64,000 nt of DNA from contig NZ_PYOC01000001.1 in assembly GCF_003026215.1 (NCBI RefSeq), forward strand, positions 992,001-1,056,000. Reading direction: 5' to 3'. This DNA is from Photobacterium indicum. Its GTDB lineage: Bacteria; Pseudomonadota; Gammaproteobacteria; Enterobacterales; Vibrionaceae. Made by a program: the position numbers and the translations under genes. Below the pieces are notes generated by a model. That model did no database searches, was not told where the DNA came from, and saw nothing but the letters and a program-made list of their open reading frames with translations. Below are positions 30,544 to 37,876 of this stretch, piece after piece; position 1 is the stretch's first letter; the number at the start of each line of letters is the position of its first letter.

Positions 30544-31725
30544 TTACGGACGTGTCGGTGAGATAGTTAATGGCTCTAACGTTACGACGGCATTACCAGA
30601 TGCCGCCGGGTGGTCAACATAAGAAGTATCTTGCAATAGTGTATAGTAAACATCGACAAAATCATCATCATTAACTAGCACTCCATCAGGGATTGCTTCA
30701 ATGATTTTTCCTGTAATTTGTGGAATCACAGCGTAAGCTTGAACTTCTGGATCCGGGATCATTTTCAATACTTCTTCTGCGACTTGTACTAAAAGTTTGG
30801 CCAGTTCTTTGTAATCAGTGCCGTCATCTTGTTCCATCAAGATCATATCGGCAGCCCCCCAGCGATAACGAGACCAATGAATAACAACCTGGTTAGGGTA
30901 GTAATCTTTATTATCATAATCTAGGTAGGGCATTTCTACTAAGTCGATAGTTGGTTCGTCTCGGCTCGGATTAACTCCGGTTACGATTGCGTACACTTCG
31001 GCTTTACCAGAAATCCACGGTTCTTCATCATCAGATAAACGAATCTTCTTAATGACAGTGGTTGAGATAGGAGCTGCTGAAAGGCTGCGAGTACTGCTCT
31101 TCAATTGAGCTTGTTGTGTGTTTTCATCATAGCTATGCAATGCAGCAGGTTGCCCTAATTTGTTCATTTCAGCCTGCATTGCTTGCAGCCCAGCTTTGAG
31201 CTCCTTAGCGCTATTGTTGTCAACTACAAACACTGGTACTTCTGGTATTTGGTATACATCAAGTTGGTGAAGCTGACCATAGACATCATAGGCTTCAATG
31301 TACTGCCATGACTCGTCATCCCCTGTAGGCTCAAAAGCAAACAAAGGACTTTGGCCTTCCTTCCATTCCTGTACCATGGATGTGTCAGCAAGTCTCAGCT
31401 CAAGCAGTTCATTAGTGAAATTCGACACCCCTTTTACTGTTCGAATATTGGTGTCGGTTTTTTGCATTTGCTGCGTAAATGGCGATTGTGGTTCTTCCGC
31501 CAGCAGCGTTGATAGTGAAATAGTTAATTTCTGATCGGATATTTGTGATTTGAGAGTTTGCTCAATATCCGTGTAATTTTCACTTAGCTGTTTGGCTAAT
31601 TTTTGTTTTTGCTGTGTAATCGTATCGGCATTTTGACTAGGTGATTGATGGGAGGTTGTGTCATCAGACTGACATCCAGCAAGCACTAAACTTAATAATA
31701 AGCATGTTGGTGTTATTTTATTCAT
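30544..31725 (-). CDS. Large lipoprotein, DUF3103-like
   Basis: 393 residues with a lipoprotein signal (lipobox 'VLAGC'). The mature chain has a coiled helical N-terminal part (about 40-110), then a beta-rich C-terminal half with 'GKAEVYAIVTGVNPSRDEPTIDLVEMPYLDYDNKDYYPNQVVIHWSRYRWGAADMILMEQDDG'. This region recalls DUF3103 proteins of vibrios, but I cannot confirm the family. It is probably exported and anchored in the outer membrane. It is a single gene. Confidence 0.65.
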   Translation of the reverse strand: MNKITPTCLLLSLVLAGCQSDDTTSHQSPSQNADTITQQKQKLAKQLSENYTDIEQTLKSQISDQKLTISLSTLLAEEPQSPFTQQMQKTDTNIRTVKGVSNFTNELLELRLADTSMVQEWKEGQSPLFAFEPTGDDESWQYIEAYDVYGQLHQLDVYQIPEVPVFVVDNNSAKELKAGLQAMQAEMNKLGQPAALHSYDENTQQAQLKSSTRSLSAAPISTTVIKKIRLSDDEEPWISGKAEVYAIVTGVNPSRDEPTIDLVEMPYLDYDNKDYYPNQVVIHWSRYRWGAADMILMEQDDGTDYKELAKLLVQVAEEVLKMIPDPEVQAYAVIPQITGKIIEAIPDGVLVNDDDFVDVYYTLLQDTSYVDHPAASGNAVVTLEPLTISPTRP

Positions 31726-31981
31726 TGTATACCCCTAAGGTATTTTAATAATAATGATATTAAAGTTAAAGCTCTAATATGATTAGACTATCACGACATA
31801 AGTCATAATTTATATGAATACTTTCGCGAAAATAAATATCGCAGGGGTATCAAATGAATACTATTCATTAAAAATGGGAGGAACATCATAAACGTTTTTT
31901 GATGCGAATGAACATATCGATTGTGAGTAGAAGAGAATTGAGCCACTTGGTAATAAATATATCTGTAAATATATATTCATA

Positions 31982-32475
31982 CTAAGTGATAGTTAATAAA
32001 CACATTAACGTATGCCACCAACAAGAATGCACAGCGATAACAGCTCCTGTATGATCTAAGAACTGAATCAAGCGTTGAACACTGCTCTTGTCTAGCTTAA
32101 TCGCTTCAAATTTTCTCTCATTGTATTGTTGAAAATTGTACTGCCTTAAATATTCGTTATTGAGTATTAGTACATCTTCGATATTGATGAACAGTACGCA
32201 TTTTTGTTCGATATGTAGGTTTATAGAAAAGAAGCCAAAATCATCGCTGTTGGGATCATAGTGTGTAGTGGTACGGTGAATATGTAAGTTAAGTAATCTT
32301 CTATCGAAAGAGGCATTCTCATGCGATCACCATCTTGAGTTAATTTCCCTAACGCCATTTTGGGAATGCTGTCTGGATGCTTGGTGTCTCTTGCATGCGA
32401 TATGCCATCGGCTCAAATTGGTTAAGAGCCTGTTGAGTTAGGTAAAGGTAACCATTGGTCTGTATCCTGTACTTT
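31982..32475 (-). pseudogene. Decayed gene of unknown family
   Basis: Two protein-like stretches on the minus strand lie in different frames. The upstream one reads 'NGYLYLTQQALNQFEPMAYR...TAFPKWR' and is closed by a TAG. The downstream one (32326 to 31982) reads 'HENASFDRRLLNLHIH...' to '...QRLIQFLDHTGAVIAVHSCWWH' and has no start codon. Together they look like one gene broken by a frameshift and stops. The family was not recognised. Confidence 0.45.
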
Positions 32476-32567
32476 ATATGTCATTGAATTTCAGCTTATA
32501 ATTTATTACTTAGTTCCCATACTAAATCGAGTCTTTGCTTGGAAAAATAAATAATAATCAAAAAATT

Positions 32568-32596
32568 TGCATCCTTTTGGCATCTCATACGTGTTG
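32568..32596 (+). promoter_or_regulatory. Candidate ECF-type promoter before the permease gene
   Basis: TGCATCC (32568-32574) and CGTGTTG (32590-32596) are separated by 15 bp, about 30 bp before the start codon. The pair resembles ECF promoters with an ATCC-type -35 and CGT-type -10. A SigZ-like sigma factor is encoded three genes on, so self-recognition is possible but unproven. Confidence 0.3.
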
Positions 32597-32627
32597 ATAG
32601 TAGTGAACACGTTTTAAGGGTGCAGTA

Positions 32628-33614
32628 ATGTTTGAATTTTTCACTCAGTTAGCGGATTGGCTAACCTATACAATTATTGGGCTCGACCCCAATACCGCTA
32701 TGGGTATCGGCCTACATTTTTTTATTGAAGATACCAGTAAGATCTTAGTTTTATTAGTGTGTTTAATCTATGGTATTTCATATCTGCGTGCGAGCCTTAG
32801 CGTAGACAAGGTTCGTGATTATCTACAGGGTAAGAATAGGGGAGTTGGGTATTTTTTAGGATCTCTTTTTGGTGCGATTACGCCCTTTTGTTCTTGCAGT
32901 TCTATTCCTCTATTTATGGGTTTTGTGTCGGCACGTATTCCTATTGGTGTAACTATCGCCTTTCTTATTACCTCACCGCTTATTAATGAGGTAGTGGTGA
33001 TTATGTTGGGCAGTATCCTTGGGTTTAAGTTTACTCTTATGTACATAATCATAGGTATGTTATTGGGTATATTAGCTGGTGTGATCCTAGATATGTGCAA
33101 GGCACACCGTTGGTTGCAACCCTTTCTTGCCAAGGCTTATCAACAAGATGAAAACACTAGCACCCAAGTAACTCATGACATCCAAACTATCGCTATGACC
33201 TATAAGGAACGTCACGAGTTTGCCGTCAACGAGACTAGCGCCATTGTTAAACGTATTTGGAAATGGGTAATTATTGGGGTGGGCTTAGGTGCATTTATCC
33301 ATGGCTTTGTTCCGGCGCAATGGTTTGAGCAAAATCTAGCGAATGGAGAGTGGTGGACAGTGCCATTAGCGACATTGAGTGCGATCCCTATCTACACCAA
33401 TGCATCTGGGGTTGTTCCTATCATGGCCTCTCTTATTGATAAAGGAATGCCTTTGGGCACTACACTCGCTTTCTGTATGGGGGCGGTGGCGGTTAGCCTG
33501 CCCGAATTTATGATGCTAAAGCAGGTAATGCAGTACCGTTTATTGGGGGTGATTGCAGGATATTTATTCGTTGCCATCTCCATTACTGGGTGGCTGTTTA
33601 ACGCTTATTACTAA
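32628..33614 (+). CDS. Permease of the DUF318/ArsP (YraQ) family
   Basis: 328 residues, about eight to ten membrane spans. The diagnostic 'GAITPFCSCSSIPLFMGFVSARIPIG' segment is present (cysteines CSC) with its partner repeat 'YTNASGVVPIMASLIDKGMPLG'. 'AIPIYTNASG' replaces the second Cys motif. Family members export organoarsenicals or other soft metal or thiol compounds. The gene is 21 bases before a mini-thioredoxin and precedes a sigma factor gene, an arrangement that suggests a redox or metal-stress unit. Confidence 0.82.
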   Translation: MFEFFTQLADWLTYTIIGLDPNTAMGIGLHFFIEDTSKILVLLVCLIYGISYLRASLSVDKVRDYLQGKNRGVGYFLGSLFGAITPFCSCSSIPLFMGFVSARIPIGVTIAFLITSPLINEVVVIMLGSILGFKFTLMYIIIGMLLGILAGVILDMCKAHRWLQPFLAKAYQQDENTSTQVTHDIQTIAMTYKERHEFAVNETSAIVKRIWKWVIIGVGLGAFIHGFVPAQWFEQNLANGEWWTVPLATLSAIPIYTNASGVVPIMASLIDKGMPLGTTLAFCMGAVAVSLPEFMMLKQVMQYRLLGVIAGYLFVAISITGWLFNAYY

Positions 33615-33635
33615 ATTAAACTAACGGAGTATATT

Positions 33636-33869
33636 ATGAAAATTGTTCAGGTTTACGGTTCTGGTTGTAAGAACTGCACAGTGACAGCAGAGCGTATTGA
33701 AGAGGTAGCGAAAGAGCTTGGTCAAGAAATTCAGCTTCAAAAGGTAACGACCCTAGAAGAGATCATGAAGGCAGGTATCATGAGCACCCCTGGCGTTAGT
33801 ATCGATGGTTTTGTTAAGCACACAGGCTCTGTGCCTAGTATTGTCCAAGTTCGTGAACTTCTTGCTTAA
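33636..33869 (+). CDS. Thioredoxin-like small redox protein (TM0996/MTH895 family)
   Basis: 77 residues. The CxxC site 'GSGCKNC' is near residues 9-15, followed by 'TTLEEIMKAGIMSTPGVSIDG', with the cis-Pro in 'STPGV' as in thioredoxin folds. These redox-active disulfide proteins usually sit next to DUF318 permeases, as here, and probably reduce or hand over its substrate. The ribosome site is AACGGAG. A terminator follows before the sigma factor gene. Confidence 0.88.
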   Translation: MKIVQVYGSGCKNCTVTAERIEEVAKELGQEIQLQKVTTLEEIMKAGIMSTPGVSIDGFVKHTGSVPSIVQVRELLA

Positions 33870-33917
33870 GATATAGTAACTTACGCGCATTAGAGCCTAT
33901 ACTCAGCTATAATGAGT

Positions 33918-33960
33918 AAAGTCGCGCACCCTTGTTTGCGGTGTCGCGACTTTTGTTGTT
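33918..33960 (+). terminator. Terminator/attenuator between thioredoxin and sigma factor genes
   Basis: Nine-bp GC-rich stem AAAGTCGCG/CGCGACTTT, followed by TGTTGTTTT. The sigma factor start lies just 20 bases beyond, so sigma expression may depend on read-through. Confidence 0.7.
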
Positions 33961-33979
33961 TTGTAAAAGGATAAAGGCA

Positions 33980-34501
33980 GTGAAGTGTTTGATGAAGGCA
34001 TGGGACGAGACTGAATCCGTGCTTTATGGATGGTTAATGAAGCAAACTCAAAGCCAACATGAAACAGAAGATATCATGCAAGAGGTGTTTTTGAAGGCAA
34101 TGAGTAATCGTGAGCGCTTTTGCACCTTAGACGATAGCAGGTCTTGGCTTTTTAAGATCACTAAGAATCACTTCATCGATTATTTACGCCGTAAGGTTGA
34201 TTGTAAGGACATTGGTGAGTTTGTTGCTCCGGATAATGTTCTACCCGTAATGACACAGTTGCAAACTTGTCTTCCTCGTCTTTTACCTAAGTTGTCAGCA
34301 AAAGACAGGCATATTATCGAAGAGTGTGATCTTAATGGATTAACTCAGCTTGAGTACGCTAAACGTAATGAGTTGAGTCTTCCTGCTACCAAGGCGCGCC
34401 TGCGTCGAGCGCGTTTAGAGTTAAAAGATAAATTGATTAATGAGTGCATGGTGAAACAAGATCACACTGGCGTGTGTTGCTTTAAACGAATTCAAGCATA
34501 A
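33980..34501 (+). CDS. ECF RNA polymerase sigma factor, SigZ-like
   Basis: About 173 residues. Region 2 is 'QSQHETEDIMQEVFLKAM...SWLFKITKNHFIDYLRRK'. Region 4 is 'LSAKDRHIIEECDLNGLTQLEYAKRNELSLPATKARLRRARLELKD'. The C terminus carries a Cys pair ('VCCFKR'), as in SigZ proteins, which may sense thiols or metals. The start is unsure: GTG after AAAGGATAAAGGCA is given here, with an ATG four codons later as alternative. No anti-sigma gene is adjacent; the C-terminal tail may serve that role. Confidence 0.8.
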   Translation: MKCLMKAWDETESVLYGWLMKQTQSQHETEDIMQEVFLKAMSNRERFCTLDDSRSWLFKITKNHFIDYLRRKVDCKDIGEFVAPDNVLPVMTQLQTCLPRLLPKLSAKDRHIIEECDLNGLTQLEYAKRNELSLPATKARLRRARLELKDKLINECMVKQDHTGVCCFKRIQA

Positions 34502-34611
34502 TAAGTTGGAATCTGTCAGATCAAGCTCCAAAACGTTTTTCCTTGATTGAGTCAGCAATATTTTCACTGACTCACCTTTAAACGCTATCGCTAAAATCTC
34601 AGCTGTATTGC

Positions 34612-34670
34612 CTGCTGACCACGGTGCGAAGTGCAATGAAGAAAGTCATGAGCGTATTGTTACTGTTGAA
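34612..34670 (+). pseudogene. Short remnant of the same YafY-type regulator segment
   Basis: The DNA GCTGACCACGGTGCGAAGTG and following bases match 30358-30415 closely, and read 'ADHGAKCNEE' against 'AEHGAKRNED'. It overlaps the 3' end of the minus-strand cysteinyl-tRNA synthetase gene, so the synthetase gene ends within, or was joined to, an older broken gene. Confidence 0.4.
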
Positions 34671-36019
34671 CCATCGCCTGAATCATTAACCTGATAACCT
34701 AAGTCATGTATTTGATTACGAATCGCATCGGCTTTTTTAAAATTTCCTTGCCGTTTCACCTGTGTTCTTAACTCCACCAGTCTTGAAATATGTTCTGGTA
34801 TTTCAACCGTTTCGATTTTATGAATATCCAACCCTAAAATACGGTCGAAGAATAAAGCTGTCGCTCTCTTGTTTTCTGGAAGTAGTTCGCTATTCAAAAT
34901 GTCCCAAACTAAAGCAAGTGCTTGAGGCATATTGAGGTCTCGGTTAATGTGCCTCATAAATAATTCGCGGTAACTTTCATCGACGTTGCCGTTACTTGGT
35001 AACAATGCCACTTTGTTACGTAACCTGTGCAAAGCTTTCTGTGCTCCACTTAACCCTTCCCACGTGAAGCTCAGATGGCTGCGATAATGACTAGTCAAAG
35101 TAAGATAACGATACGCCATTGGTTCATAACCTTTTGCGACCAAAGCGTCCAACCGTAGTGAAGTACCTGATTTAGAAATCTTCTCTTTCTTCAATTGTAG
35201 GAAGTATCCATGCAGCCAATAATTGGCTTGAACATGACCATTTTTCGCTTGGCACTGCGCTATTTCATTAGTGTGATGAACTGGGATGTGGTCTTCACCG
35301 CCAACGTGAATATCGAATACATCTCCTAGGTATTTTTCTGCCATGGCGGAACACTCAATGTGCCAACCAGGGAAACCAATACCCCAAGGGCTTTGCCACT
35401 CCATCTGTCGTGGCTTATCACCGCTGAATTTCCATAAAGCAAAATCGGTAGGGTGTCTCTTTTCTGCCATTTCGACTCGAATCCCTGCTTCCAATCCCTG
35501 TTTATCAAGTCTGGCGAGTTTGCCATAGTCGGCTAATCTGTCGGTGTTGAAGTAAACACCATCAGAGGTTTGATAGGTAAAGCCTTTGGTTTCTAACTCT
35601 TGGATAAATTTAATTTGTTCTTGAATATGCTCCGTCGCACGGCAAGTAACAGAAGGCGTTGAGATATTCAGCAGCTTGAGATCATCGAAGAAGGCTTGTT
35701 CAAAAAATTGAGCTATTTCCCAGGCCGATTTATTCTGTTTTCGAGCCCCTTTCTCCATCTTGTCTTCACCGGTGTCGGCATCAGATACCAAGTGTCCAAC
35801 ATCGGTGATGTTCATAACGTGATTCACTTCATAGCCATTTATCTCAAGTGTGCGCCGTAATACATCCACAAAAAGATAGGTTCGCAAATTGCCTGCGTGA
35901 GCATAGTCATAAACGGTCGGGCCACAAGCATACAGCCCCACTTTATTTGCCCGAATGGAATTGAATGGGCGTAGTTCGCGTGCCATCGTGTCGAATAGTA
36001 GAAGTTCTGGTTGGCTCAT
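34646..36019 (-). CDS. cysS: Cysteinyl-tRNA synthetase, divergent type
   Basis: Charges tRNA-Cys with cysteine. 457 residues. Zinc ligands and ATP motifs are present: '[19 protein letters not shown]' (Zn Cys and the HIGH-like HAGN), 'GWHIECSAM' (Zn Cys), '[10 protein letters not shown]' (His and Glu ligands, with Thr where most have Glu) and '[10 protein letters not shown]' (KMSKS). The form differs from the usual Vibrio CysS, which begins IYNTLTRQ. It is therefore probably a second or transferred copy; the main copy would lie elsewhere. AAAGGA lies eight bases before the ATG. A Cys-rich leader and attenuator precede it. Confidence 0.9.
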
Positions 36020-36035: not shown

Positions 36036-36071
36036 TACAAAAAGGCCGCAGATGAAAAACATCAGCGGCCT
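36036..36071 (-). terminator. Attenuator terminator (3:4 hairpin) of cysS
   Basis: On the minus strand, AGGCCGC (36071-36065) pairs with GCGGCCT (36049-36043). GATG/CATC sit inside around a TTTTT loop, then TTTTG. The stem is 11 bp with one mismatch, and it ends only 17 bases before the cysS start codon. A terminator in this place must be bypassed for the gene to be expressed. Confidence 0.88.
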
Positions 36072-36145
36072 CGAAGTAATGTGATAATTTTTTGCTAATT
36101 AATAGCTACACACAGGCCGCCGTAAATCAAAATGATTACAGCAGC
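36065..36145 (-). promoter_or_regulatory. Alternative hairpins 1:2 and 2:3 of the cysS attenuator
   Basis: Region 1, inside the Cys codons (GCTGCTGTAA, 36145-36136), pairs with region 2 (TTACGGCGGC, 36125-36116) over 10 bp with two G-U. Region 2 (CGGCGGCCT, 36122-36114) instead pairs with region 3 (AGGCCGCTG, 36071-36063) over 9 bp with one G-U; region 3 is the 5' arm of the terminator. Regions 2 and 4 share the same GCGGCCT, so the pairings exclude each other. Confidence 0.85.
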
Positions 36146-36191
36146 AACAAACTGGGTGAGTGAACGTAGCTAAATATGTCATGTAATTCAT
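36099..36191 (-). CDS. Cys-rich leader peptide of cysS (attenuation sensor)
   Basis: A 30-codon frame, MNYMTYLATFTHPV followed by CCCC, then NHFDLRRPVCSY. It has four consecutive Cys codons (36149-36138) and a fifth near the end. Stalling at the Cys codons would cover region 1 and leave region 2 free to form the antiterminator. Translation to the stop codon would cover region 2 and let the terminator form. The ribosome site is weak (AAAGG lies 15 bases upstream), and the second ATG, three codons in, could be the start. The protein itself probably has no function. Confidence 0.8.
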   Translation of the reverse strand: MNYMTYLATFTHPVCCCCNHFDLRRPVCSY

Positions 36192-36232
36192 ACTAATAAA
36201 CAGTACCTTTCAAATCAAGCCCTACCTTAAGC

Positions 36233-36261: not shown

Positions 36262-36430
36262 TGATTTACACCGTTAAGACAGGGCACGCCGTTAAGCAAT
36301 TTTTCTATGCCTGAGTTAATTTATGTTGCTGTTATGCGTTTAACCAATATTAAGGGATGTGATTACGTTGGCAAAGTGTGAGGGTAGGGTTGATTATAAT
36401 GATTTAAATTCAATGATTTATAGTGGTTTT

Positions 36431-37876
36431 ATGTATCATAAATTTTTTGTGTTAATGCTCGCGACAGTCAGTTTCACTGGCTACACATCTCCACTGACTC
36501 CTTCTGGTGACGATTGGTTAAATCATGCAACTCAAGGCCTAGCACCTTATTGGATGATGGAGAGTGCACAAGGGATTCCTGTTGGAAATTTTCCGACCTT
36601 TCGTTGTGACGATGGCACCATACTGGACGCACAACATCCCTGTTCTGAATTAAATATGGGGTGGATAAGTCCGGACTTCAATCGCGAATATACACGAATG
36701 AAGTCGCGCCAAACTTACGCCTATGGAGTCCTTTTCCACCTCACTGGAGATAAGCAGGCATTAGAGCTTGCAAAGAAGGGCTCGTACTATTTGATTAACT
36801 ATCTGCAAGATAAGCAAAATGGTGGTTTTGTTAGCTATACACAAAACGGTAAGCCAGGGCTTGATTGGCAACAGCGTACCTCTCAAGATCAAGCTTATGC
36901 ATTAGTTGGTTTAGCGATGTATTACTATTTGACGCAAGACCCTAAGGTAGAACAAGTACTCATAAAACAGCAGGCATTCATTTTTGATAAATACCGCCTT
37001 AAAGATAATCGGGGGCTAGCATGGGTGTTAAAAGATGGTGATGGATACAGTACGAAACAGAGAGAACTCGTCGCTCAACTCGATCAAATTAACGGTTATT
37101 TATTACTTGTTGCCCCGTTACTTCCTGCACCCGTAGAAGCTAAATGGAAAGAGGATTTACGATGGCTAACACAGGTGTTACTAGAAGATTATCACTCCAA
37201 TGAAGAGCAGCGCTTTTATGGTGCTGTACATCATAAAGCGGTAATGATGCTGGACGCCAAACATAATGATTTTGGCCATACTATTAAGGCATACTGGATG
37301 ACGTATTTAAGTGGGCGACTGCTTGATAATTCAGACTGGGTTCAGCGTGGGTTCAAGGGTATGAAGCACACCCTAAAACAAGCGCAGTATCAACAAAATT
37401 TCGAGGTGGTACAGCACTTATTCTCTGATGAACTGAAGTATCAATGGCAAGGTTCATCAATTCCAGCATGGAAATCCAGGAAATACTCTAATGGCAGCTC
37501 TTCGTGGGAGTGGGCTGAGTTAGATCAAGCAGCGATGACGGTTTCGCTTGTTGATGGGTCGATGAAAGATACGCTTAAATATACTCTACCTACATTTATG
37601 GATGCTTGGGTGGATCATGTTTATGGTGGTGTGGGGCTCAACCCGAAATCGACTAAAGCATTCCACTGGGGTAATGGCTACCATCAATTCGAGCACGCAT
37701 TGATTGGTTACCTTTATGCCCAGCAAAGTGACGGAAAACCTGCCGAGCTTTATTACGCGAGGCCAGAGAACAGTGCCATGCCACTCAACCCCTACTATTT
37801 TCAAGCAGATAGGGCAGAAAAACTGTCAGTAGACGGCCTAATTAAAAAGGTGCGATTTACGCGTATTCAACCATGA
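36431..37876 (+). CDS. Secreted AGE-like (alpha/alpha)6-barrel protein
   Basis: About 481 residues from the ATG that opens on a signal peptide ('MYHKFFVLMLATVSFTGYTS'). The frame extends 24 codons further upstream without a signal-like start. It contains 'LTGDKQALELAKKGSYYLINYLQDKQNGGFVSY', 'DQAYALVGLAMYYYLTQDP' and 'FGHTIKAYWMTYLSGRLL', as in N-acylglucosamine 2-epimerase-like six-hairpin proteins. A sugar epimerase, isomerase or glycoside hydrolase role in the periplasm is likely. The substrate is unknown. It is divergent from the cysS leader. Confidence 0.65.
   Translation: MYHKFFVLMLATVSFTGYTSPLTPSGDDWLNHATQGLAPYWMMESAQGIPVGNFPTFRCDDGTILDAQHPCSELNMGWISPDFNREYTRMKSRQTYAYGVLFHLTGDKQALELAKKGSYYLINYLQDKQNGGFVSYTQNGKPGLDWQQRTSQDQAYALVGLAMYYYLTQDPKVEQVLIKQQAFIFDKYRLKDNRGLAWVLKDGDGYSTKQRELVAQLDQINGYLLLVAPLLPAPVEAKWKEDLRWLTQVLLEDYHSNEEQRFYGAVHHKAVMMLDAKHNDFGHTIKAYWMTYLSGRLLDNSDWVQRGFKGMKHTLKQAQYQQNFEVVQHLFSDELKYQWQGSSIPAWKSRKYSNGSSSWEWAELDQAAMTVSLVDGSMKDTLKYTLPTFMDAWVDHVYGGVGLNPKSTKAFHWGNGYHQFEHALIGYLYAQQSDGKPAELYYARPENSAMPLNPYYFQADRAEKLSVDGLIKKVRFTRIQP

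Follow-up and report, generated by a model that had tools for sequence, protein, structure and literature searches.

The closest described counterpart of the switch that we report here is the uORFC-8-2 motif, which precedes cysS in Rhodobacterales and has been predicted from sequence to be a ribosome-mediated attenuator. By its description, as given in the accessible part of the source, the motif consists of a short ORF with tandem Cys codons (two of them, in alpha-proteobacteria), two prominent stems and a terminator, with a CysRS gene downstream, and in its general plan our locus is like it (PMC8632094). In mycobacteria, leaderless polycysteine short ORFs respond to cysteine and control the genes downstream of them (Canestrari et al. 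2020, as related in the accessible text of PMC9031893), and the available part of PMC13236596 cites these ORFs as well. PMC4787780, in its accessible part, cites work on the attenuation of a TrpRS that is auxiliary and resistant. Moreover, the accessible text on Cupriavidus metallidurans describes a CysS2 that is encoded in an operon with folE and other genes under the zinc repressor Zur (PMC10882993).

Here we analyse a stretch of 64,000 nucleotides of Photobacterium indicum, which we call the window, in which a second CysRS gene, cysS2, is preceded by a short frame with four consecutive Cys codons and by RNA regions that can pair in mutually exclusive ways (Table 1). Our analysis makes it highly probable that a ribosome-mediated transcription attenuator controls a spare, fail-safe CysRS, which would be induced when the charging of Cys-tRNA collapses.

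Results

Table 1. Positions in the window of the features of the cysS2 locus, with the basis for each.
Feature	Position	Strand	Basis and remarks
-35 box TTGATT	36213..36218	-	promoter pattern in 36/36 related leaders
-10 box TAGTAT	36190..36195	-	7 bases before leader ATG; overlaps first ATG of 30-codon frame
leader peptide	36099..36182	-	probable start 36182; MTYLATFTHPVCCCCNHFDLRRPVCSY, 27 aa; probably leaderless translation
Cys codon run TGT TGC TGC TGT	36138..36149	-	proposed sensor; 3' part inside region 1; 3-5 Cys in 36/36 related leaders
hairpin 1:2 over Cys codons	36116..36145	-	RNA fold; three pairs changed on both sides
region 2 core GCGGCCT	36114..36120	-	predicted antiterminator partner of region 3; 2:3 in 35/35 distinct leaders (stalled-ribosome fold)
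region 3 AGGCCGCTGATG	36060..36071	-	terminator 5' arm and region 2 partner; alignment, covariation, folds
region 4	36043..36054	-	terminator 3' arm; covariation
terminator T run	36039..36043	-	sequence and alignment of relatives
cysS2, second divergent cysteinyl-tRNA synthetase, 457 aa	34646..36019	-	TIGR00435 and Pfam PF01406

A second cysteinyl-tRNA synthetase

By its profile match and motifs, the product of cysS2 is a full-length CysRS. It is not the housekeeping one. It scores 399.8 bits against TIGR00435, for which the cut-off is 340, the HxGx and KISKS motifs are in place, and the nearest solved sequence is 3sp1, over residues 8-453. The housekeeping cysS lies elsewhere in the P. indicum genome, on contig C12, and is 38% identical to CysS2; such a gene is also present in all 34 Vibrionaceae genomes that carry cysS2. 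In genome G123 the housekeeping match (G123:C1:207887-209271) comes in two pieces with one stop, and the cysS2 frame is open. In a tree of 146 CysRS sequences, CysS2 falls in a set of 37 rows with local support of 100, separate from 24 housekeeping genes, and the groups neighbouring this set are beta-proteobacterial copies and genes from MAGs; the tree was made with FastTree only and carries long-branch warnings, and the duplicates L032-L036 and L187 as well as L029, which has no start, were omitted from it. Photobacterium genes appear in two places among the Vibrio genes of this tree, which suggests that cysS2 has been transferred between genera. A cysS gene on a Paracoccus plasmid (Rhodobacterales), 33% identical to CysS2, was considered as a stand-in for uORFC-8-2 and rejected, there being no Cys-pair frame upstream of it.

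Since the cell already has a housekeeping CysRS, a fail-safe purpose for cysS2 is likely: a CysRS of another lineage would take over when the housekeeping enzyme is inhibited or damaged, be it by an inhibitor, by a thiol poison or by loss of zinc. The zinc ligands of the E. coli enzyme, which we take to be C28, C209, H234 and E238, have all four of their positions kept in CysS2 and in 6/6 aligned relatives, and on that account we rejected the idea of a zinc-free CysRS paralogue. Thus CysS2 is not obviously zinc-free, which counts against seeing in cysS2 a zinc-starvation back-up like that of C. metallidurans, triggered by a drop in Cys-tRNA once the zinc enzyme gives out. Zinc control of a second CysRS is nevertheless on record for that beta-proteobacterium (accessible part of PMC10882993), and the fail-safe logic would be identical. 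We consider the back-up reading unlikely as the main explanation, while the published Zur-controlled gene makes zinc starvation a further possible occasion on which the fail-safe enzyme would be called upon.

Leader peptide and promoter

A preliminary description of the locus had reported a 30-codon frame that contains a run of four Cys codons and a fifth later, and the sequence bears this out: the frame MNYMTYLATFTHPVCCCCNHFDLRRPVCSY (36191-36099, minus strand) stands before cysS2 with its four consecutive Cys codons, and the fifth lies at 36110-36108 (minus strand). The frame thus exists as described, but its likely start is the second ATG, at 36182, which gives 27 codons. This start is the likelier one because the first ATG overlaps the -10 box, the position of which is kept in relatives; moreover, ATG 36182 is aligned with the ATG of most relatives' leaders.

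A sigma-70-type pattern of the form TTGNNN-N16-18-TANNNT-N6-9-ATG is found at 36/36 related leaders, compared with 93/7200 shuffled upstream regions, or 99/7200 when the control is matched for the number of ATGs tried. The gap from the -10 box to the leader ATG is 6 bases in 23 leaders, 7 in 11 and 9 in 2 (n = 36), the spacer between the -35 and -10 boxes is 17 in 32/36, and six rows have another ATG in the frame ahead of the one that fits. A wider rule (gap 5-9, spacer 16-19) also takes in L045, L048, L052, L188 and L193-L197; L039, a beta-proteobacterial copy, is without a -35 box even under this rule. Because the ATG sits 6-9 bases past the -10 box in all 36 leaders, the leader mRNA is probably leaderless, beginning at the second ATG, and from this promoter spacing we infer that transcription starts at or adjoining the leader AUG.

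Alternative RNA structures

The whole-leader RNA is predicted to fold into the hairpin over the Cys codons and the terminator, at -49.4 kcal/mol (z = -2.87), and 0/200 dinucleotide shuffles fold as well. The motif GCGGCCT occurs at 36120-36114 in region 2 and at 36049-36043 in region 4, and AGGCCGC at 36071-36065 in region 3. Because each GCGGCCT can pair with the same AGGCCGC, the structures 2:3 and 3:4 are mutually exclusive; this is what the preliminary description had proposed from the shared motif, and both copies are indeed present and able to pair with region 3. Its layout of four regions also stands, with the correction that region 2 pairs with region 3 through 36120-36114 and not through 36125-36116. 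The terminator that it named is present too, with a T run that ends 19 bases before cysS2 (the earlier figure of 17 is reached by counting the GT that follows). A simple terminator scan found none at the leader, but the fold and the comparison with relatives do show one.

As a stand-in for a ribosome that stalls before region 4 has been made, we folded only the segment that lies between the Cys run and region 4. Region 2 then pairs with region 3 by at least five pairs in 35/35 distinct leaders; the mean of the shuffled control is 0.33, which is not low, and the leader rows are related, so that the 35 are not independent events. In the whole fold, all 35 distinct leaders form the terminator core, with all six core bases of region 3 paired with region 4.

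The pairing can also be followed through an alignment of 29/36 leaders (set A1; a further set, A2, holds 25/36), in which near-copies, long inserts and L172 were omitted. In these 29 leaders, 91.3% of the pairs in helices 1:2 and 3:4 are standard, compared with 86.2% in shuffles and 33-64% when the helices are slid. Six pairs in the two helices have changed on both sides, a number reached by 19/500 shuffles, whereas none of 500 shuffles reaches either the 32 cells changed on both sides (8.3 in shuffles) or the covariation of 0.179 (0.097 in shuffles). Further pair types show no excess over shuffles (15 vs 14.1). Moreover, the base that closes the core of region 3 and the region 4 base that it pairs with vary in step with the type of region 2 in 26/29 rows, which are related to one another: C/G goes with CGGCGG in 12 rows and T/A or T/G with CGGCC in 14, with 3/29 exceptions. 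Rfam has no family at gathering score within the 64-kb window, the sole weak match at the leader being the trpB motif, at 22.6 vs 59 bits.

A model for the switch

Ribosome-mediated attenuation at cysS2 is well supported by these comparisons, and so is the trp/phe-type design that had been put forward at the outset, given 2:3 and 3:4 in 35/35 leaders and the compensatory changes in 1:2 and 3:4. Transcription would begin at or next to the leader AUG, and the leader peptide would be translated from a leaderless mRNA. When Cys-tRNA is plentiful, the ribosome would pass the Cys codons and reach the stop just past region 2, region 3 would pair with region 4, and transcription would end before cysS2. 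When Cys-tRNA is short, the ribosome would stall on the Cys codons and cover region 1; 2:3 would then form, no terminator would appear, and cysS2 would be made. The leader stop lies 14-28 bases past the start of region 2 in 31/35 distinct leaders and 55-58 bases past it in the other four (L142, L146, L148 and L149), in which release would therefore act differently. With the enteric trp, phe and his attenuators the cysS2 leader shares an alternation of four RNA regions, control codons that lie in region 1 and, in most rows, a leader stop near region 2. The enteric leaders have a 5' UTR with a Shine-Dalgarno sequence and control biosynthesis operons or pheST.

Could the leader work by other means? 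On the 3' side of the Cys run there are two groups of leaders, which use different reading frames on the same RNA (DLRRL vs IYGRF), and thus the Cys run and the RNA are conserved while most of the peptide is free. Residues outside the Cys run that are so poorly conserved, and even shift frame, argue against an arrest peptide. Short ORFs can also act by translation coupling instead of terminator control, and the accessible text of a review allows that mycobacterial polycysteine ORFs could control downstream translation by attenuation (PMC9031893). However, a terminator with a T run is present in every aligned leader, and 79 bases separate the leader stop from the cysS2 start; we regard an action through arrest or coupling as very unlikely.

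Nor do we give much credence to the thought that the hairpin is a mere terminator of upstream transcription with incidental Cys codons, although T-run hairpins such as GGCCGCTGAT...ATCAGCGGCC are common in Vibrionaceae and those weak matches to our covariance model (see below) that were read are of the same kind. The gene upstream of the leader (36359-37876) is divergent to cysS2, and the Cys run, the promoter and the 2:3 pairing are conserved together in related leaders; this conservation argues strongly against a mere terminator, which has next to no chance of being the whole story.

Distribution of gene and leader

To return to the attenuator, how widely is it found? At E <= 1e-120, a cysS2 match is present in 34/329 Vibrionaceae genomes, in 4/295 genomes of the order sample (our own, G057, G581 and G565) and in 4/369 of the class sample, and at E <= 1e-110 in 5/398 of the phylum sample, the P. 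indicum genome being included in each count. In a further genome of the family, G109, the leader is present but the contig breaks off about 400 bases into cysS2; this genome stands outside the count of 34. A leader with 3-5 consecutive Cys is present in 36/36 rows (34/34 Vibrionaceae carriers, G057 and G581), with four Cys in 28/36. The Cys codons swap TGT and TGC synonymously among related leaders, and the Cys run, the promoter spacing and the terminator are kept in all 36, the terminator standing 12-20 bases before cysS2 in 31/36 and 44-93 bases before it in 5/36. Conservation in relatives had been suggested as a check together with the preliminary description, and no refutation came of it: the Cys run and the stems are kept, with compensatory changes, in 34/34 Vibrionaceae carriers. 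By way of control, 0/25 housekeeping cysS genes have four consecutive Cys among the short frames listed upstream of them, at most three for each gene; within these frames, L016 shows CCC, in one of 60 residues, and three other genes show CC.

GTDB places the beta-proteobacteria inside the same class as P. indicum. The beta-proteobacterial copies, on megaplasmids and in genomes (L039, L045, L048, L052, L193-L197), have leaders with 2-3 consecutive Cys and, judged by eye, a terminator-like hairpin, and the same is true of G1121, a complete genome of this class that clusters with the beta copies. The leader rule also flagged L095 and L189, where Cys pairs lie at or near the frame end; these count among the 50 rows marked 'LEADER' in the tree and are not convincing. 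The leader was not recognised at L174, at the plasmid locus L192, at the second Terrisporobacter copy, at the sole-copy genes of G942 and G825, or at MAG genes such as L037, L051 and L107, and L098 is without an ATG-started Cys-pair frame that fits the rule. In Clostridia (Peptostreptococcaceae), the leaders of L102 and L089 carry CCCCC or CYCCC, but a strong Shine-Dalgarno sequence precedes them, and T-tailed hairpin-like stretches lie on the 3' side; these extra CysRS genes of the same wider lineage perhaps represent an independent origin of the same switch.

The number of cysS copies is 2 in Paraburkholderia bryophila, 2 in Peptostreptococcaceae VA2 and 3 in Terrisporobacter, all of them leader-bearing isolates, and 2 each in G057, G581 and G1121, again with leader. 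Undibacterium has two copies and no leader by the ATG rule, and G565 two copies and no leader. Four MAGs without leader have one cysS, and in three beta MAGs we found the leader together with one cysS, so that an auxiliary role may not be universal. These three MAGs, like the predicted Rhodobacterales attenuator, fit ordinary control, in which the leader would sense low Cys-tRNA during cysteine starvation or other stress and CysS2 would just add charging capacity or affinity, with no inhibitor involved. The leader anatomy would be identical under plain homeostasis of this kind; however, a scattered extra copy of another CysRS lineage (34/329 Vibrionaceae) looks more like an accessory trait than like core homeostasis, and we find no common neighbour gene that would link cysS2 to cysteine metabolism. 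We hold plain homeostasis to be possible rather than probable.

A covariance model built from 25 leaders has one strong site in our own genome, at 111 bits, the next match being at 26 (150/1967 candidates scored). Across 150 family genomes it gives nine matches of at least 75 bits, all of them at cysS2, with the next at 43 bits (25 candidates scored per genome), and 56/150 genomes have some match at E <= 0.01. Odd but real leaders score 44-58 bits, and a weak real leader could therefore be missed by the model. Because all matches of at least 75 bits are at cysS2, and the weaker ones that were read are terminator-like, the attenuator seems tied to the cysS2 gene. The same switch before other genes was considered for weak matches below 44 bits (L220-L225, and L208 and L209 in our own genome) and rejected, these being apparent ordinary terminators.

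Genomic neighbourhood

No gene neighbour is common to all carriers: when 609 ORFs from 44 loci were clustered, the groups covered at most 8 loci, and the groups with shared neighbours mostly came from closely related carriers or were widespread families, for example LysR (the plasmid loci L192-L198 stand outside this set). In the window, past the 3' end of cysS2 and on the other strand, 32628-34501 holds genes for an ArsP_1 permease, a thioredoxin_3 protein and a sigma-70 family factor; together they have the look of a metalloid or redox module.

A copy on a plasmid of Vibrio coralliilyticus OCN014, with 72% identity to CysS2, ends 55 bases from an NRPS/PKS cluster that comprises a PPTase, a serine acetyltransferase, a SufS-like enzyme, an adenylating enzyme, a TauD-type oxygenase, three NRPS or NRPS/PKS proteins and an MFS pump. 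A Cys run was looked for upstream of this copy and none was found; by eye, the short upstream frame MKPITHIQSG resembles the start of leaders such as MTPITTSTQ. A plasmid copy so placed, and without the Cys run, would fit a reading in which cysS2 is an inducible resistance gene: a natural CysRS inhibitor would empty Cys-tRNA and stall the leader ribosome, thereby inducing an insensitive CysRS, and the producer of the inhibitor may hold an unregulated copy beside its cluster. Such a role would also suit a copy that is auxiliary and accessory, belongs to a foreign lineage and has a leader that would sense failed charging. On the other hand, where the same cluster occurs on two Klebsiella plasmids and in Nonomuraea gerenzanensis, the stretches read contain no cysS2, so that the link between cysS2 and the cluster may be chance and self-resistance is weakened as an explanation. 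Moreover, the fetched stretches around the other carriers, some of them short, contain no NRPS or PKS gene, we know of no natural CysRS inhibitor, and our literature search gave no report of one. We treat inducible resistance as a tentative reading with the balance somewhat against it; that leader and cysS2 form a transferable cassette which induces itself and confers resistance to a natural CysRS inhibitor yet to be described is a rather doubtful proposition.

Apart from this, the only matches were to an MFS pump (25%), within the window, and, in L158, to a DUF6817-like stretch (31%), and a link of all carriers to biosynthetic clusters was rejected, as there is no NRPS/PKS match around the others in the stretches examined. 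The PCL-family protein of the cluster has no homologue in 324 family genomes by a search that was run without a known positive, so that its empty answer alone shows nothing. An NRPS/PKS cluster with a SufS-like enzyme, a PCL-family adenylating enzyme, a TauD oxygenase and DUF6817 is common to the Vibrio plasmid (NZ_CP009266.1, 16454-40086; L199), the two Klebsiella plasmids (CP067531.1, L200; NZ_CP026396.1, L201, L204 and L205) and the Nonomuraea genome (NZ_LT559118.1, L202); between Vibrio and Klebsiella, identity is 52-67% for the SufS-like, PCL-family, TauD, DUF6817 and serine acetyltransferase proteins and 32% for the PPTase. On NZ_CP026396.1, at 31675-35571 (L205 11676-15572), a KamA radical SAM gene and an MFS transporter flank a class I tRNA ligase gene, which is possibly another synthetase-linked cluster. 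Extra cysS-like genes on Klebsiella plasmids are common: 503 plasmid records have a CysRS-like stretch, with about 34-35% identity to CysS2 among the matches listed.

Discussion

The auxiliary indolmycin-resistant TrpRS of Streptomyces coelicolor is reportedly under ribosome-mediated attenuation, a finding associated with the names of Vecchione and Sello (2010) and Kitabatake et al. (2002). In our analysis the cysS2 system is best read as working like that enzyme, each being a second aminoacyl-tRNA synthetase with ribosome-mediated attenuation (predicted in the case of cysS2). The two differ in that the Streptomyces system concerns tryptophan, belongs to Actinobacteria and has a known inhibitor, whereas cysS2 concerns cysteine, belongs to Proteobacteria and has no known inhibitor. 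For cysS2 itself a fail-safe purpose is likely; what speaks for a purpose is the logic together with a single genomic association, which the homologues of the cluster concerned do not share.

How does the leader compare with the other systems known? Mycobacterial polycysteine ORFs belong to Actinobacteria and precede other genes. The cysS2 leader resembles them, as far as their accessible descriptions go, in its contiguous Cys codons, which are observed, and in its leaderless start, which is probable; unlike them, it targets an extra CysRS and has an intrinsic terminator. It differs from uORFC-8-2 in occurring in gamma- and beta-proteobacteria, in having 3-5 (Vibrionaceae) or 2-3 (beta) Cys, in preceding what is mostly an extra CysRS and in being probably leaderless. 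With the CysS2 of C. metallidurans, by what is accessible of its description, the shared point is a second CysRS that would be expressed only under a special condition; there the means are the Zur repressor and an operon, whereas here we predict a leader that counts Cys-tRNA, with no shared neighbours.

Our literature search, which had most subscription journals outside its reach, gave no paper on an extra cysS under attenuation, and the terms cysS, cysteinyl and attenuat are absent from the main text of a Photobacterium transcriptome paper (PMC3505737). There are precedents for the single elements, and in that search we found none for their combination. New here are a spare CysRS as the target, a start outside Actinobacteria that is probably leaderless, and a leader and gene that stay together while their neighbours change. 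In the literature searched, and as far as its accessible texts go, a cysteine attenuator before cysS had appeared previously only as the Rhodobacterales prediction.

Two questions thus become testable now. Do bacteria other than Actinobacteria use leaderless short ORFs to sense the supply of amino acids? And does nature make CysRS inhibitors? According to the accessible texts there is a precedent in which a second synthetase with its own charging sensor is tied to an antibiotic, namely indolmycin and TrpRS, and if leader and cysS2 were indeed a resistance cassette, the NRPS/PKS cluster of the V. coralliilyticus plasmid would be a candidate source of a CysRS inhibitor. More generally, the unit of leader and cysS2 recurs in scattered marine and soil bacteria.
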